Source: Streptacidiphilus carbonis
GTDB lineage: Bacteria; Actinomycetota; Actinomycetes; Streptomycetales; Streptomycetaceae
Length of the DNA stretch: 38,843 nucleotides
Direction of reading: 5' to 3'
Assembly: GCF_000787775.1 (NCBI RefSeq)
Contig: NZ_BBPM01000066.1
Span: 1 to 38,843 of the forward strand
The notes beneath the pieces are model-generated. The model had not been told where the DNA came from and searched no databases. It worked only from the letters and a program-made list of their open reading frames with translations. Shown piece by piece: positions 4,840 through 38,163 of this stretch (positions are counted from its first letter, which is position 1; the number at the start of each line of letters is the position of its first letter). Position numbers and translations under genes: made by a program.

Positions 4840-7242
4840 GTGGAGACGGCGGAGGACAAGCAGGACGCACCCACAGCCGTGGTCGTGCTCGACCTGGACG
4901 GCCTGGTGACCGGCTGGAGCGAGGGCGGACGGCTGCTGCTGGGCTGGACACCGCAGGAAACCGTCGGGCGTCCCTGCGCCTCCCTGCTGGCCGAGCCTGT
5001 CCCCGGCTTCCCCGAGAGCTGTGAGGGACGCGTCGGCCTACGCCACCGGAACGGTTCCACCGTGGACACCGCGGTGACATCGCACCCACTGCACGGCGAC
5101 GGCGGCCAGGCGCTCGGGCGGGTTGTGACTGTGCAGCGCTGGGATCGCCGCCCGGTGATCGCCGACCGGGCTTTCGAGCAGTGCCCGTTCGCCTTGGGCG
5201 TCTACGACCCCGACCTGCGCTTTCTCTGGGTTAACGAGTCCGCCTGCCGGGTGATGGCGCACTCGGAGCAGCAGGTGCTCGGCGAGAAGTACCGCGAGCT
5301 GTTCCCCGAGCTCGACGACACCGCGTACACCAACCAGCTCTCCGAGGTCGCCCGGACAGGCGAACCGGCCCGACTGATCACGGTCTTCCGGCCGCTCGGC
5401 AGCAACTACGCCAACGCCTGGGCCACCAGCATGTGGCCCGTCCGGGACGAGCAGGGCACGATCCGCGCGGTCGCCAACTGGGGCTTCGACATGAGCGCCG
5501 AGTACTGGGCCCGGCAGCGGCTGCTGGTCCTCGGCGAGGCCAGCAAGGGCATCGGCCAGACCCTCGACGTTGCCGGTACCGCCGAGGAACTGGCGCGCGT
5601 CTCGGTGCCGGGTTTCGCCGACCGCGTCACTGTCGACCTCTTCGAGCAGGTGCTGCGCGGCGACGAGCCGCCCCTCTCGGCCGCGTTCACCGTCGACGGA
5701 ACCGTCACGCTGCGACGGGTCGGCCGGTACGGCGTGCGGGAGGGTGCCGACCGGCGTCCCGAGCCCGCATCGGTCCACTACTCGCCGAACTCGGTCGCGG
5801 TCCGCTGCATGGCCTCCGACACGTCGATGGTGCATCTTGCCGCCGAACCCGGCCCAGGCGGCGAGTGGGGCTTCGGGCCCGGTCTCGCCGCCGACCCGGC
5901 GCACTGGCCGCCGGGCAACCCGGTGATCGACGGGACGATCGCCGCGAAGGGGCTGACCGGCCGGATCACCGTGCCGCTCCGGGCGCGCGGCGCCCTGCTC
6001 GGGGTCGTCACGTTCGCCCGCAGCGAGCGGCCGGAGAGCTTCACCGCCGACGACCTGATCCTCGCCGAGGAGATGACCGCGAAGGCGGCCGTCGCCCTCG
6101 ACAACGCCCGCCGCTACACCCGCGAGCACACCACCGCCCTGACCCTGCAGCGCAGCCTGCTGCCGCAGCGGCTGCCGAGCCAGGAGGCGATCGAGGTGGC
6201 CTCCCGGTACCTGCCCGCCGACGCGGACGCGGGCGTGGGCGGCGACTGGTTCGATGTCATTCCGTTGTCCGGCGCCCGGGTCGCCCTGGTCGTCGGCGAC
6301 GTCGTCGGCCGCGGCCTGCACGCCTCGGCCAGCATGGGACGGCTGCGCACGGCGGTCCGCACCCTGGCCGACGTGGACCTGCCACCGGACGAGCTGCTGA
6401 CCCATCTGGACGACCTGGTCCTGCACGCCCCCGACGACCTCCACCCCGAGGGCCGCTTCGAGGCCACCGGCGAATCCGGCGCCACCTGCCTGTACGCGGT
6501 TTACGATCCGGTCTCCCGCCGCTGCGCACTCGCGAGCGCCGGCCACCCGCTTCCGCTGATCATCGCCCCGAACGGCACCGTCACCGCAGTGCCCGCCCAC
6601 GCGGGACCGCCGCTCGGAGTCGGCGGATTGCCCTTCGAGGCGGTAGAGCTCGAACTGCCGGAGGGCAGCCTGCTCGCCCTCTACACCGACGGCCTGCTGG
6701 AGAGCCGCGGGTGCGACGTCGACCGGACCAGCGAACTCGTCCAGATCCTCAGCGGACCGGCCACCTCGCTTGAGGCCCTCTGCGACACCGTGACCAACAC
6801 CCTCCTCCCCTCCCACCGGACCGACGACGCGGCCCTGCTGCTCGCCCGAACCCACGCGCTGGCTCCCGACCACGTCGCCGACTGGGACATCGAGCCCGAC
6901 GTCGCGCAGGTGCGGTACGCCCGAGCGGTCGCCATGGAACGGTTGGACGCGTGGGGCATGCAGGAGGCCGCGTTCGTCACCGAACTGGTCGTCAGCGAGC
7001 TGGTCACCAACGCCATCAAGTACGGCGAGCCGCCCATCAAACTGAGGCTGATCCGCGACAGGCAGCTGATCTGCGAGGTCTCCGACGCCAGGGACACCAG
7101 CCCGCACCTGCGCCGGGCGCGCGCCTTCGACGAGGGCGGCCGCGGCCTGCTGCTCGTCGCCCAGCTCACCCAGGGCTGGGGCACCCGGCACAGCACAAAC
7201 GGCAAGACCATCTGGTGCGCGCAGACCATCGGCCTGTCCTGA
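4840..7242 (+). CDS. PAS-PAS-GAF-SpoIIE/PP2C phosphatase with C-terminal HATPase (RsbU/RsbW-type signalling protein)
   Basis: 800 aa; the GTG start is set by GGAGG eight bases upstream. Domain order: PAS at about 12-97, second PAS at 108-225, GAF at 228-425, SpoIIE-type PP2C phosphatase at 455-670 and a GHKL ATPase at 680-800. Metal-binding acidic residues are visible in GGDWFDVIP (D469, D472), GDVVG (D487), YTDGLLE (D617) and DDAALL. The ATPase N-box is ELVTNAIKYG and its glycine box is DEGGRGLLLV. Such proteins dephosphorylate STAS anti-sigma antagonists, while the HATPase module can act as the kinase/anti-sigma side. Both activities therefore sit in one sensor polypeptide. No membrane helices, so cytosolic. 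A full-length paralogous reading frame lies at 33677-36098, broken by a frameshift. A STAS protein is at 16455. Confidence 0.95.
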   Translation: METAEDKQDAPTAVVVLDLDGLVTGWSEGGRLLLGWTPQETVGRPCASLLAEPVPGFPESCEGRVGLRHRNGSTVDTAVTSHPLHGDGGQALGRVVTVQRWDRRPVIADRAFEQCPFALGVYDPDLRFLWVNESACRVMAHSEQQVLGEKYRELFPELDDTAYTNQLSEVARTGEPARLITVFRPLGSNYANAWATSMWPVRDEQGTIRAVANWGFDMSAEYWARQRLLVLGEASKGIGQTLDVAGTAEELARVSVPGFADRVTVDLFEQVLRGDEPPLSAAFTVDGTVTLRRVGRYGVREGADRRPEPASVHYSPNSVAVRCMASDTSMVHLAAEPGPGGEWGFGPGLAADPAHWPPGNPVIDGTIAAKGLTGRITVPLRARGALLGVVTFARSERPESFTADDLILAEEMTAKAAVALDNARRYTREHTTALTLQRSLLPQRLPSQEAIEVASRYLPADADAGVGGDWFDVIPLSGARVALVVGDVVGRGLHASASMGRLRTAVRTLADVDLPPDELLTHLDDLVLHAPDDLHPEGRFEATGESGATCLYAVYDPVSRRCALASAGHPLPLIIAPNGTVTAVPAHAGPPLGVGGLPFEAVELELPEGSLLALYTDGLLESRGCDVDRTSELVQILSGPATSLEALCDTVTNTLLPSHRTDDAALLLARTHALAPDHVADWDIEPDVAQVRYARAVAMERLDAWGMQEAAFVTELVVSELVTNAIKYGEPPIKLRLIRDRQLICEVSDARDTSPHLRRARAFDEGGRGLLLVAQLTQGWGTRHSTNGKTIWCAQTIGLS

Positions 7243-33676: not shown

Positions 33677-35422
33677 TCACGCCCCCGGCAGGGTCTGCTC
33701 GGCCCAGATCGTCTTGCCGGTGTGGTGCTGGCGGCTGCCCCAGCGCTGGGTGAGCTGGGCGACGAGCAGCAGCCCGCGGCCGCCTTCGTCGAAGGTGCGG
33801 GCCCGGCGCAGATGCGGCGAGGTGTTGCTGGCGTCGGACACCTCGCAGATCAGCGAGGCGTCGTGGATCAGCCGCAGCCGGATCGGCGGGGTGGCGTGCC
33901 GGATGGCGTTGGTGACCAATTCGCTCACCACCAGTTCAGTGGTGAAGACTGATTCGTCCAGCCCCCACTCGACGAGCCGCTCGGCCACCAGCCGGCGGAT
34001 GACGGACACCGAGGCGGGGTCAGGCTCCACTTCCCAGGTGCTGACCCGGGAGGGGTCCAGGCCCCGGGTCCTGGACAGCAGCAGGGCTGTGTCATCAGGC
34101 GTCTCCCGGCCCGGGAGCAGGGCGTCCAGGACCGAGTCGCAGATGGATTCCAGCGAACCGGTGGCACCGCGGAGCACCTCGGCCAGGGCCGCGCTGCCGG
34201 CGTCGGGGTCGCGGCGGCGGTCCTCGACCAGGCCGTCGGTGTACAGGGCCAGCAGGGACCCCTCCGGGAGATCCCGCTCCACCGCCTCGAACGGCAGACT
34301 GCCGACGCCCAGCGGCGGTCCGACCGGGAGTTCCACGAATTCCACCGAGCCGTCGGGCAGCGCCAGCGCCGGCGGCGGGTGCCCGGCCGAGGCCATCGAA
34401 CACCTGCGGGTGACCGGGTCGTACACCGCGTACAGGCAGGTGGCCCCGACGTCACCGGCCAGCTGGTCGGCGTCGTTCTCCATGGACAACCGGACGACCA
34501 GGTCGTCCAGGTGGGTCAGCAACTCGTCCGGGGGCAGATCGACGTCCGCCAGGGTGCGTACTGCGGTGCGCAGCCGTCCCATCGTCGCGGACGCCTCGAT
34601 ACCGTGGCCCACCACGTCGCCGACCACCAGGCCGACCCGCGCGCCGGACAGCGGAATGACGTCGAACCAGTCGCCGCCGACACCGGCGTGCGGAGCGGCG
34701 GGCAGGTACCGGGACGCCACCTCCACGGCCGCCGGGCGGGGCAGCGACTGCGGCAGCAGGCTCCGCTGCAAGGACAGGGCGGTCTCGCGCTCGCGCGAGA
34801 AGCGGCGCGCGTTGTCGATGCAGACACCGGCCCGGGTGGTGATCTCCTCGGCGAGCAGCGCGTCGTCCGGTGCGTAGGGCTCCGGTTGCCGATAGCGGAA
34901 GAAGACGGCTACCCCGAGGGTGGTTCCCCTGGCCCGGACCGGCACTGCCATGACGGAGTGCAGCCCGTACCGCTCGATGCGCCCGGCCCTGGGCGACCCG
35001 GCCTCCGGCCAGCCGTGCACCGTCATTCCCGCGACGTCCTGGATGACCGGGGACCCGGTGGCCAGGCATCGCGCGTGCGGTGAGGCGGGCGGGTAGACGT
35101 CCGCGGTCCCCAGCTCCAGGCCGGCCTCGGGGCAGCCTTCGGTGATGGATCGGTGGGCCGTGCGGGTGAGAACCACGCCTGCGGCGGACGGTCCGGGCAG
35201 CCCGGATCTCGGCTCACCGTCGCCGGCGGGGTGCTCCAGCAGGTCCACGGTGACGAAGTCCGCGAGGTACGGAACGCACACCTCGGCCAGTTCCTCGGCC
35301 GTACGAGTGAGGTCCAGGGTCGTGCCGATGCGCACGCTGGCCTCATTGACAAGCAGCAGCCGGCGCCGCCCCCAGATATCGCTCGGTGGTGTCGTGAGCG
35401 GTGAGGCACACGCCGTGAACAT
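33677..35422 (-). CDS. GAF-SpoIIE/PP2C phosphatase-HATPase, 3' part of a frameshifted gene
   Basis: Up to 581 codons in this frame; homology begins near 35376. Domains: GAF (RRRLLLVNEASVRIGTTLDL to about residue 215), SpoIIE-type PP2C (GVGGDWFDVIPLSGARVGLV, GDVVGHGIEAS, YTDGLVEDRR, DDTALLLSR) and a C-terminal GHKL ATPase (ELVVSELVTNAIRHA, DEGGRGLLLVAQLTQRWG). All metal-binding Asp residues are present. The paralogue at 4840-7242 reads continuously from PAS into this GAF domain. Here the PAS part is in another frame ending at 35343, so the two must once have been one protein of about 800 aa. The listed start (35422) is only the nominal open-frame start. Activity would be RsbU-like phosphatase with an attached anti-sigma-type kinase fold. 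Confidence 0.85.
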   Translation of the reverse strand: MFTACASPLTTPPSDIWGRRRLLLVNEASVRIGTTLDLTRTAEELAEVCVPYLADFVTVDLLEHPAGDGEPRSGLPGPSAAGVVLTRTAHRSITEGCPEAGLELGTADVYPPASPHARCLATGSPVIQDVAGMTVHGWPEAGSPRAGRIERYGLHSVMAVPVRARGTTLGVAVFFRYRQPEPYAPDDALLAEEITTRAGVCIDNARRFSRERETALSLQRSLLPQSLPRPAAVEVASRYLPAAPHAGVGGDWFDVIPLSGARVGLVVGDVVGHGIEASATMGRLRTAVRTLADVDLPPDELLTHLDDLVVRLSMENDADQLAGDVGATCLYAVYDPVTRRCSMASAGHPPPALALPDGSVEFVELPVGPPLGVGSLPFEAVERDLPEGSLLALYTDGLVEDRRRDPDAGSAALAEVLRGATGSLESICDSVLDALLPGRETPDDTALLLSRTRGLDPSRVSTWEVEPDPASVSVIRRLVAERLVEWGLDESVFTTELVVSELVTNAIRHATPPIRLRLIHDASLICEVSDASNTSPHLRRARTFDEGGRGLLLVAQLTQRWGSRQHHTGKTIWAEQTLPGA

Positions 35423-36098
35423 TGCCGTCGTCGTCGGCCAGCGGCGTCAGATTCGCCATCCAGGCGTGTTCCCGGTTCTCTCCCCCGGTGCGCAGGAAGG
35501 TCTCCACATCGAGCCGTTCGCCGGTCCTCAGCACGCGCAGCATCTGCGTCTCCAGCTCGGCACTCTGCGGCTTGCCCCCGATCTCCGGGAGCCTCAGGCC
35601 CTGGATCTCCTCCTGGGGCAGCCCGATGACCTCAGCCATCGCGTCGTTCATGGAGAGCAACCGCAGAGACGTGTCGTACACCGCGACCGGGCACGGTGAC
35701 CGGGTGAAGCCCCACCTGGCCACATCGTCCTGCCCGACCTCCGGCCCCGGCTGCGGCAGCGCGCTGACCAGCAACCATCCGCCGTCCGGTGTCTTGTCGG
35801 GATCCACCGCGTGGGCCAACAGCCGCACCTTCACCGGCCTTCCGTCCCGATGCCGCAGGACAGCCGTGCCGTTCCAGCGGACGTCCCCTGCCGCGGGCGG
35901 TGCGGCGTCCTGTGCACCGGCCAGCAACTCCGCGGCGGGACGGCCCACCACCTCCTCGGCCGCGTAGCCCAGCAGCCGGGTCGCGCCGGCGTTCCATTCC
36001 GTCACGGCTCCGTAGCCGTCCACCCGCACGCGGGCGCTGGCTTCCTCCCCGAACGGCCCATGCGGGTGACCCGCCGACCCACCGTCCTGCTCTCTCAT
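35343..36098 (-). CDS. Tandem PAS domain protein, 5' part of the frameshifted SpoIIE phosphatase gene
   Basis: 251 aa; ATG 36098. PAS 1 at about 18-110 (ARVRVDGYGAVTEWNAGATR, LLGYAAEEVVGRPAAELL). PAS 2 at about 128-240 (CPVAVYDTSLRLLSMNDAM, then GENREHAWMANLTPLADDD and HGVCLTAHDTTERY). After Tyr the frame gives an eight-residue nonsense tail and stops. Shifting by one base at about 35375 continues directly as WGRRRLLLVNEAS, matching EYWARQRLLVLGEAS in the intact paralogue at 4840. Either the gene is disrupted or the sequence has a one-base error. On its own it would be a soluble PAS sensor without an output. Confidence 0.8.
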   Translation of the reverse strand: MREQDGGSAGHPHGPFGEEASARVRVDGYGAVTEWNAGATRLLGYAAEEVVGRPAAELLAGAQDAAPPAAGDVRWNGTAVLRHRDGRPVKVRLLAHAVDPDKTPDGGWLLVSALPQPGPEVGQDDVARWGFTRSPCPVAVYDTSLRLLSMNDAMAEVIGLPQEEIQGLRLPEIGGKPQSAELETQMLRVLRTGERLDVETFLRTGGENREHAWMANLTPLADDDGNVHGVCLTAHDTTERYLGAAPAAACQ

Positions 36099-36358
36099 GG
36101 GTCGCCGTCCTCGTCCCGATGCCCTGGCCCGTAAACCTACCGTCGGCCCTCGACAATCCCTTCACGGACAGCTTTGCCCAGACCCCCACCATTCTCAACG
36201 CAGGGGCGCGGCGAATCGCTGAGGCCGAAGGGATCAGAGGGGCAGGGGTCGGGTAGGTCGGGTACTCGACACCTGGACATACCGGCTAAGGGCTGTCCCG
36301 TTATCTCCCACAGGCTGGCGGCGGAGATGTGTCGGTGGGGCTTGAGACACTCTGGTCC

Positions 36359-36877
36359 ATGCTGATCAAGGGATACGACTACGGGCCGCTGGTCGCAGGC
36401 GAGTGGCTGCTTGAGCGTTCCGGGTTCTGGTCCAATCACCTACTGGCCATGTGCCGGTTCACCTCGGGTGAGATCCGGCCGGCACCCGAGTGGTTCGGTG
36501 ACGACGGCGCCGACACGGACGCCCTGGCCGGCCTGTCCTGGCGCGACATCTCTCACATCGCCGATACGCCGGACCTGACCGCACCGGGCGTGCACGACAC
36601 CGAGGCACGACTCCTGCTCCTGCTGCCGCTGCTCGCCGACGACGAACTGCCGCCGGAAGCGCCGGCACGGGCAAACGCCGCCCTCACAGCCGTCGGAGCA
36701 CCCGAGGACTCCGCCCAGGACACCGCTGACCACCTCCTTCGGAACAGGCGGCCCGCAGCCAGTCGCCGTGGTGGTGCCGACTCCCCCCTGAGCGGTGGCA
36801 GCCGCCGTCTCACTGAGCCGCACTCAGATCCGGATCCAGCGGTTTCGGATCCACTGGGACGACGGGGTGCTCGGTGA
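36359..36877 (+). CDS. Hypothetical protein
   Basis: 172 aa from ATG 36359; a GTG at 36329 is also in frame and neither has a strong ribosome-binding site. The first 120 residues look like real protein (YDYGPLVAGEWLLERSGFW, RPAPEWFGDDGADTDALAGL, HDTEARLLLLLPLLADDELP). They have acidic and Trp-rich segments typical of a small actinomycete hypothetical family that I cannot name. The last 45 residues are Arg/Ser/Pro-rich and doubtful, so a frameshift near 36760-36800 is possible. No signal peptide or membrane helix. Confidence 0.6.
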   Translation: MLIKGYDYGPLVAGEWLLERSGFWSNHLLAMCRFTSGEIRPAPEWFGDDGADTDALAGLSWRDISHIADTPDLTAPGVHDTEARLLLLLPLLADDELPPEAPARANAALTAVGAPEDSAQDTADHLLRNRRPAASRRGGADSPLSGGSRRLTEPHSDPDPAVSDPLGRRGAR

Positions 36878-36947
36878 CGTGTGCGGGTACGTCGTCGAGC
36901 ACCTGGGCAACCCGGGCGACATCTCCACCGATGCCGAGGCAGGATAG
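36795..36947 (+). CDS. Possible 50-residue ORF or displaced C-terminus
   Basis: A frame from GTG 36795 to TAG 36947 contains a coding-like stretch (QRFRIHWDDGVLGDVCGYVV, then EHLGNPGDIS). It overlaps the doubtful tail of the preceding gene in another frame. It may be a remnant of a separate gene. No ribosome-binding site of note. Confidence 0.25.
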   Translation: MAAAVSLSRTQIRIQRFRIHWDDGVLGDVCGYVVEHLGNPGDISTDAEAG

Positions 36948-37032
36948 CGCCGTTACGCTTTTGAGGGCCTCCGTAGGCGAACGGCAGACGGTACGGTCTG
37001 ACGGTATGTCGACGATCGCGTTGAGGTGACAG

Positions 37033-38163
37033 ATGCCGCTGACTCCCGAAGACGTTAGCAAGAAGCAGTTCACGACTGTCCGCCTTCGCGAGGGCTACGA
37101 CATGAAACAGGTCGATGACTTCCTCGACGCGGTCGAAGCCGAGCTCACGCGACTCATTGGGGAGGTCGAGGACCTCCACGCCAACAACGAGGACCTCAGC
37201 ACCAAGCTGAAGGCCGCTCAGAGCCAGGCGCGCGGGCAACTCCAAATACGCGAGGGTCCCAAGTCGCGTGACACCTCGCCTCCGGCCCTCATCGCCCCTC
37301 TTGAGGTGCACCAAGCACTGGGACAGGACGATCCCCGGCGTATCGGTCGCTATCGTCTGACAGCCCGTCTGGGTCAAGGAGGCATGGGAACTGTGTACCT
37401 CGGCCGCTCCCCTGGACAACGTTTGGTCGCGGTCAAGGTCGTCAGGGCCGAATTCGCCGCCGACCCGGACTTCCGCGGACGGTTCAACCGAGAGATCGAG
37501 ACGTCGCGCCGCGTCGGCGGGTTCTATACCGCTGCGGTGGTCGACGCTGATGCCCAAGGTGATCCGCCTTGGCTGGCCACCGAGTACATCCCCGGCGTGT
37601 CCCTGCAGGAGGTCTTGCGGCAGCAGGGCGCCCTGCCGGTGCGCACCGTCCACGCCCTGGCCCTCGGCATCGCTGAGGCACTGGAGGCGATCCACTCCGG
37701 CGGCGTCGTTCACCGCGACCTGAAGCCCGGCAACATCATCGTCACGAGCGCCGGGCCACGCGTCATCGACTTCGGCATCGCCCGTGCATTTGACGGCACG
37801 GCCCTCACCCGCACCAATCACGTCATCGGCACTCCGGGATTCCTCGCTCCAGAGCAGCTCACCGGCGCAACTGTGACAGCTGCCGCTGACCTGTACGCCT
37901 TCGGCATGGTGCTGTGCCACGCCGCAGGAGCCGCTCCCTTTCCCGACGGCGAACCGCTTGCCGTGGCTCTCGGGCTACTGCCCTCCTGGCTCGTCAGCGT
38001 GATCACCCGATGCCTGGACCACGATCCAGCCAAGCGCCCGAGTCCCGCCGACGTGCTCGGCCTGCTCACCTCGAATCACTCCCCCGCAGAGGATTGGCTG
38101 CCGCTCCCCGTGCGGACGATGATCGATATGCGCCAGGCCCATATTGATTCCGCCAGCTCGTAG
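37033..38163 (+). CDS. DivIVA/Wag31 N-terminal domain fused to a Ser/Thr protein kinase
   Basis: 376 aa, ATG 37033 (GAGGTGA upstream). Residues 1-65 are a DivIVA N-terminal domain, nearly identical in pattern to Streptomyces DivIVA: MPLTPEDVSKKQFTTVRLRE, then EGYDMKQVDDFLDAVEAELT, with the membrane-binding loop (F13, R17, R19) and the start of the coiled coil (to about 66). A 35-residue linker follows. Residues 104-345 are a complete Hanks-type kinase: glycine loop LGQGGMGTV (113-121), Lys135, Glu154, HRDLKPGN (227-234), DFG (246-248), GTPGFLAPE (266-274) and Arg335. There is no membrane helix and no PASTA or repeat domain, so the DivIVA part probably sets its location at poles or hyphal tips. 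In relatives DivIVA is a kinase substrate; here scaffold and kinase are one chain. No database comparison was possible. Confidence 0.93.
   Translation: MPLTPEDVSKKQFTTVRLREGYDMKQVDDFLDAVEAELTRLIGEVEDLHANNEDLSTKLKAAQSQARGQLQIREGPKSRDTSPPALIAPLEVHQALGQDDPRRIGRYRLTARLGQGGMGTVYLGRSPGQRLVAVKVVRAEFAADPDFRGRFNREIETSRRVGGFYTAAVVDADAQGDPPWLATEYIPGVSLQEVLRQQGALPVRTVHALALGIAEALEAIHSGGVVHRDLKPGNIIVTSAGPRVIDFGIARAFDGTALTRTNHVIGTPGFLAPEQLTGATVTAAADLYAFGMVLCHAAGAAPFPDGEPLAVALGLLPSWLVSVITRCLDHDPAKRPSPADVLGLLTSNHSPAEDWLPLPVRTMIDMRQAHIDSASS

Follow-up and report, generated by a model that had tools for sequence, protein, structure and literature searches.

A single open reading frame in the soil actinomycete Streptacidiphilus carbonis joins the N-terminal domain of the polar scaffold protein DivIVA, which marks the tips at which the filaments grow, to a complete Ser/Thr kinase. 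This architecture, seen in one genome, gives an enzyme of a familiar type a novel anchor: the kinase belongs with a group of Streptomycetaceae kinases that mostly carry an SPFH (Band_7) domain, and the sequences suggest that this anchor has most likely been swapped for the 5' end of divIVA. The origin put forward in an earlier note on this DNA, a DivIVA domain joined to a soluble kinase, is accordingly replaced by that of a mostly SPFH-anchored group. Both domains, the clade placement of the kinase, the homology of the front to divIVA DNA and the low dN/dS of the two parts are read from the sequence itself.

In Streptomyces, the known DivIVA-modifying kinase, AfsK, and DivIVA are separate proteins; the natural fusion is a ready-made test of whether the DivIVA N-domain is by itself enough to direct an enzyme to growing tips. 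It also suggests that SPFH and DivIVA modules can stand in for one another in anchoring bacterial kinases to the membrane.

Domain organization of the fusion protein

The window, by which the whole stretch of DNA analysed is meant, is the entire contig C74 (38843 bases) of a genome of 8.46 Mb in 139 contigs. The fusion gene occupies positions 37033-38163 of the forward strand, on which all of its features lie, as one open frame of 376 codons with an ATG start and no internal stops; its reading as a continuous DivIVA-kinase fusion is thereby upheld. It is preceded by a leader (36988-37032) that blastn and the alignment of 45 native loci identify as homologous to housekeeping divIVA leaders, and the ribosome-binding site GAGGTGA (37023-37029) ends 3 bases upstream of the ATG. 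Residues 1-23 (37033-37101) correspond to the DivIVA membrane-binding segment, with M1-D23 boundaries taken from the available part of PMC12585849, and residues 24-66 (37102-37230) to the first DivIVA coiled coil (CC1), as indicated by the heptads and the Pfam match. A linker, residues 67-103 (37231-37341), is delimited by alignment with SPFH-kinase relatives. It leads into a complete, AfsK-like Hanks-type Ser/Thr kinase, residues 104-345 (37342-38067), assigned from Pfam, NCBIfam, catalytic residues and clade, and the alignment places the group motif DWLPxPVRTM in the C-terminal tail, residues 346-376 with the stop codon (38068-38163).

The N-terminus matches the Pfam DivIVA family PF05103 over residues 3-64 (E=3.8e-10; 40.3 bits, cut-off 28) and the NCBIfam DivI1A domain TIGR03544 (47.3 bits, cut-off 22). 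The kinase matches PF00069 over residues 107-342 (E=1.8e-38; 132.9 bits, cut-off 31.7), while Band_7 (PF01145) finds no Pfam match in the protein. Four PDB sequences match the front, namely Wag31, two of B. subtilis DivIVA, and GpsB; those matching the kinase include PknB, PknA and many others. All six catalytic residues that were checked are present, K135, E154, D229, N234, D246 and E274, which in the kinase fold are the catalytic lysine and glutamate, the HRD aspartate, the asparagine, the DFG aspartate and the APE glutamate. No membrane helix was found: the best 19-residue hydropathy window within residues 1-100 scores 0.44, and the maximum of the whole protein, 1.71, is located within the kinase domain. 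The earlier description of a catalytically complete Hanks kinase without a membrane helix is therefore confirmed. The claim that residues 1-65 copy DivIVA stands insofar as the domain is real, but "copy" is too strong a word for a segment of which 39 of 66 residues are identical to the genome's own DivIVA. A long antisense frame at 36553-37920 (-) was judged spurious because it is the kinase frame that shows the GC3 pattern and matches the protein families.

Rarity of the architecture

A DivIVA N-domain query matched 394/394 family genomes, and the 45 native divIVA loci used below come from among the matches listed. Besides the window's own, no DivIVA-kinase architecture was found in the 393 other family genomes and further overlapping draws. 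When the kinase part was searched by tblastn over 76 DivIVA-type loci, native and accessory, with some genomes represented twice and the window's own locus included, only the latter matched. In a class-wide draw of 394 genomes (E <= 1e-72, five candidates each), only the window's row starts before residue 67. Such searches cover fusions with recognizable partners, and would miss those whose kinase is very unlike this one or whose DivIVA domain has diverged. The earlier note had set down beforehand that absence of the architecture from any relative would refute the fusion; it is absent in the sets searched, yet the pattern of selection described below still argues that the fusion is real.

Extra DivIVA-type copies occur at 16 loci (L169-L184) in 15 family genomes besides the window's, and these were rejected as kinase fusions, being coiled-coil proteins by eye. 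They consist of the N-domain followed in most by an apparent further coiled coil, and are diverse in length and sequence.

Among plasmids, three records matched the N-domain, two of them annotated "DivIVA domain-containing protein" and the third featureless there. With the full protein as query, 624 plasmid records matched, and four of them contain a single place that covers 80% or more of its length; among the best 15 of the 624 is one of these four, in which the match starts at residue 65. None of the 38 matched phage records reaches 80% coverage (the best 10 of the 38 were listed), and of seven pattern matches in viral contigs none was confirmed. The titles and abstracts listed from the open-access literature describe no DivIVA-kinase fusion, and the available part of PMC7159879 has no mention of DivIVA. 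The suggestion that the architecture is undescribed thus agrees with what was found in the open-access literature and the searched genomes.

The kinase and its SPFH-anchored relatives

The best NCBIfam match of the kinase is AfsK (NF053615; residues 95-370, 263.5 bits, cut-off 1300), although that profile has 809 positions, whereas the fusion has 376 residues and a DivIVA domain. The score against the PknB PASTA kinase NF033483 is 204.2 bits, below the cut-off of 450, and no PASTA family appears among the Pfam hits. The closest kinases are found in other genera of Streptomycetaceae, with the kinase part 60-74% identical in 18 relatives. The next best kinase of the same genome is 53% identical, and of the 13 other genomes among the 14 of the genus compared, three match at E <= 1e-80 (51-54% identity) and ten do not match.

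With five candidates scored per genome, 15/394 family genomes, the window's own included, match at E <= 1e-95; a draw by genus gave matches in 11/392 genomes, again with five candidates scored in each. Two further draws, with matches in 7/70 and 6/286 genomes, added no new kinase relative, and the draws overlap one another. Together with eight named loci that were added (L025-L031 and L048), 26 distinct relatives were left after the removal of five duplicates (L110 = L026, L111 = L030, L112 = L028, L117 = L048, and L210, whose kinase part equals that of L027).

Band_7 is present in 21/26 of these relatives, the underlying Pfam counts being 15/18 and 7/9 (L210 in the latter), and the match in L048 is partial; a DivIVA domain was found by Pfam in 0/26. 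The members of the SPFH-kinase group are L025-L031, L108, L109, L113, L114, L116, L118, L120, L209-L211 and L214-L217. Most have a membrane helix and Band_7, where the fusion has the DivIVA N-domain and no membrane helix. Nevertheless, the fusion resembles them in the kinase part, in the pre-kinase linker, with which its residues 93-103 (HQALGQDDPRR) align, and in the DWLPxPVRTM tail motif. Proteins that combine a helix, SPFH/Band_7 and an AfsK-like kinase are scattered over the Streptomycetaceae, and the open-access literature searched holds no description or name for the group. Judged by ORF starts at eight relative loci, no gene neighbours are shared.

Five of the 26 relatives lack an in-frame Band_7 (L115, L119, L121, L212 and L213). 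For L115, L119 and L121 the lack is read from the alignment. A hydrophobic N-terminal helix takes its place in L115 and L119, and no in-frame N-domain was seen in the other three. In L048 and L213 the SPFH part appears to lie partly or wholly out of frame before the open kinase frame. Since SPFH seems out of frame in these two and is missing from L121 and L212, the anchor may have been lost repeatedly in this group.

In a 65-row kinase tree the fusion falls inside a 19-row clade (support 100/99), and in an enlarged tree inside a 27-row clade (100/99) whose inner branching is not settled. Within the 65-row tree it lies in a 14-row fork of which the other 13 members all carry SPFH, with support of 93/88, below the tool's mark. 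A tree that excluded the five relatives lacking Band_7 and was constrained to group 21 SPFH rows apart from the fusion was 13.4 log units worse, yet was not rejected (p-AU = 0.072). The trees favour, with less than certainty, a position of the kinase nested inside the SPFH group. Because of the fork support, the unsettled inner branching and the AU result, the direction of exchange that we infer, SPFH first and DivIVA later, is favoured but not proven.

Origin of the DivIVA segment

The fusion shares with DivIVA/Wag31 of the Streptomycetaceae residues 1-66, comprising the membrane loop and CC1, as well as the leader and the ribosome-binding site. However, it scores only 45.8 on the Wag31 profile NF050102 (cut-off 260), and the intercoil region, the second coiled coil (CC2) and the C-terminal domain of DivIVA are missing, the kinase standing in their place. 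Relative to the genome's own DivIVA, an open frame of 422 codons on contig C127, residues 1-48 are 77% identical and segment 1-23 retains 21/23 residues. Of the first 51 residues 13 are changed, none of them within 11-23, and the heptads are kept. The core of CC1 (a positions V27, V34, L41, L48, L55 and A62; d positions L31, L38, V45, N52, L59 and A66) is hydrophobic or alanine with the exception of N52. It differs from that of the genome's own DivIVA at position 45 (V versus N) and position 52 (N versus L).

The homology extends to the DNA. By blastn, the fusion is 80% identical to the genome's own divIVA (L168) from 37007 to 37184 and 81% identical to the native L158 copy from 36988 to 37184. 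The match to native L127 reaches 37227 at 77% identity, that to the native L143/L144 copies begins at 36962, and over the 45 native loci the identity of the front is 76-81%. Beyond codon 50 the match fades, and 66 codons aligned without gaps are 66% identical, codons 51-66 having diverged; the break is therefore placed between codon 50 and about codon 66. The alignment of the 45 native loci further shows that a short pre-divIVA leader, including GTTGAGGTGA, is common to the fusion and native divIVA, and that the gene preceding it at native loci, which we take to be yggT, is not shared with the fusion locus. Because homology to divIVA DNA already sets in some 45 bp upstream of the start codon, the leader and the ribosome-binding site came along with the N-domain. 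An accessory DivIVA-like gene is a less likely donor, since the fusion leader matches that of housekeeping divIVA when native leaders are aligned. A simple scan found no sigma-70-like promoter upstream of the fusion.

According to the available part of PMC12585849, the N-domain of Kitasatospora DivIVA spans M1-N65, made up of the membrane segment M1-D23 and CC1 (E24-N65), with the intercoil region beginning at M66. The breakpoint falls close to this published boundary at residue 65/66, and the fusion therefore carries about one N-domain and nothing recognizable beyond it.

Constraint on both parts of the gene

For the first 50 codons, comparison with the genome's own divIVA gave dN 0.143, dS 0.796 and dN/dS 0.18, and medians over the 45 native copies were pN 0.126 and pS 0.495. 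Five comparisons between native copies gave a pN of just 0.009, which means more change in the fusion's copy than among the natives. The kinase part compared with L108 gave dN 0.149, dS 0.73 and dN/dS 0.20. Similar divergence and constraint on both parts would be the pattern expected of a standing fusion. Some of these differences may have arisen before the two parts were joined, and dN/dS is accordingly an indication of constraint rather than a post-fusion measurement.

These values bear directly on the possibility that the fusion is an assembly chimera or a decaying gene, which is considered highly improbable. It is true that the gene ends 680 bp before the end of the contig and that its architecture occurs in no other searched genome. 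Yet a difference of about 20% in DNA between the two segments makes a chimera with the genome's own divIVA unlikely, and the front stands at a similar distance from the 45 native copies. Similar dS and a dN/dS of about 0.2 in both parts tell against an artefact of assembly and against a gene that has died, the frame and the catalytic residues are intact, and the genome is listed as 99.88% complete with a contamination of 0. The fusion gene is real, and the sequence evidence indicates that it is probably functional.

Within the fusion, GC3 is 0.83 in the DivIVA part, 0.65 in the linker and 0.78 in the kinase. That of native divIVA is 0.95 over the first 400 codons and 0.88 in the N-domain alone. 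In 31/36 other window ORFs that were kept, not all of which are genes, GC3 lies above that of the whole fusion, which hints at a foreign origin.

Possible functions of the fusion

The reading that we regard as fairly probable is that of an SPFH-group kinase in which SPFH has been exchanged for the divIVA 5' end, yielding a dimeric, membrane-tethered enzyme biased to the curved membrane of tips or septa. The exchanged piece would comprise the leader, ribosome-binding site and N-domain of divIVA; the protein's attachment to the membrane, pairing, catalytic activity, preference for curvature and targets are inferred from its parts. The DivIVA loop would hold the kinase at the inner membrane face, and CC1 would form a parallel dimer, within which the two kinase domains could undergo trans-autophosphorylation. 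The linker of roughly 35 residues would allow the kinase domains to reach nearby substrates. The loop, possibly together with contacts to native DivIVA, could make the protein favour the curved membrane of hyphal tips, branch points or septa, where the kinase might phosphorylate envelope or polarisome proteins.

According to PMC12585849, in L-forms of K. viridifaciens the Kitasatospora membrane segment reduces the foci of B. subtilis DivIVA from several to one or a few, which supports a role of this segment in focus formation, but that chimera still does not restore growth. The paper also finds CC2 necessary for oligomerisation and function of DivIVA. Since CC2 is missing from the fusion, tip placement may be partial or rely on native DivIVA. 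A DivIVA-like N-terminal motif is also found, as in the fusion, on the other tip-associated proteins FilP, Scy and SepIVA (available part of PMC11571769), but these are coiled-coil proteins and no enzymes, whereas the fusion has a kinase. In Mycobacterium ulcerans, the Ser/Thr kinase PknQ is likewise paired with a DivIVA-domain protein, MupDivIVA, albeit as two separate adjacent genes for kinase and substrate rather than a single fusion (available part of PMC4238996). A location of the fusion kinase at growing poles, as the earlier note had envisaged, is plausible. DivIVA or its partners are reasonable candidate substrates, given the AfsK-like kinase, the relation of AfsK to DivIVA, and the PknQ-MupDivIVA pair.

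How far the captured domain confers polarity is where the readings diverge. SPFH is a general membrane scaffold, and it is possible, if somewhat unlikely, that the DivIVA N-domain has replaced it as a membrane-binding, self-associating handle without specificity for poles or tips. This would accord with the nature of the usual SPFH partner, with the two relatives that have just a hydrophobic helix, and with the absence of the CC2 required for DivIVA oligomerisation; on the other hand, what was captured is the membrane module of the protein that marks the tip, with no change in loop residues 11-23. At the opposite end stands a kinase built into polarity, which at tips or branch sites, alone or with native DivIVA, would phosphorylate DivIVA or wall-synthesis proteins. 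This is rather doubtful; if true, it would be a one-protein shortcut of the AfsK-DivIVA pathway, reached via exchange of an SPFH for a DivIVA scaffold module.

A DivIVA-directed enzyme, in which the N-domain pairs with native DivIVA as a heterodimer or joins its assemblies and the kinase, carried in the polarisome, phosphorylates DivIVA as AfsK does, is distinctly unlikely, notwithstanding several points in its favour. The kinase domain is AfsK-like, AfsK of S. coelicolor phosphorylates DivIVA at five C-terminal residues (available part of PMC13432765), the adjacent PknQ and MupDivIVA form a kinase-substrate pair (PMC4238996, as above), and the DivIVA-like proteins SepIVA and FilP contact DivIVA (PMC11571769, likewise). 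However, the likeness to AfsK may be weakly specific: within its own genome the fusion protein query matches 38 places, a count that takes in the fusion gene and divIVA. In addition, the fusion has V45 and N52 in its core against N45 and L52 in the genome's own DivIVA, and by general coiled-coil rules such differences favour self-pairing; it may be conjectured that the two changed residues insulate the fusion from native DivIVA. That the exchange merely captured expression, the divIVA leader and start being what mattered and the 66 residues a passive N-terminal extension, is quite improbable. The leader and ribosome-binding site did come along with the coding part, but the low non-synonymous change over the 45 native comparisons (pN 0.126, pS 0.495), the unchanged loop and the kept heptads speak against it.

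Surroundings of the fusion gene

No RNA families or tRNA were found within the window. At 33677-36098 (-), a GAF-SpoIIE-HATPase frame overlaps by 80 bases with a PAS frame that is read in a different phase, and the two may represent a split or frame-shifted gene; a similar PAS-GAF-SpoIIE-HATPase protein is encoded at 4840-7242 (+) in a single frame of 800 aa. Upstream of the fusion, the ORF at 36286-36877 (+) has no Pfam hit. Its first part matches pieces in four genus genomes (L220-L223) at 79-90% DNA identity, and two pieces matching L222 cover most of it; it is possibly a decayed gene.
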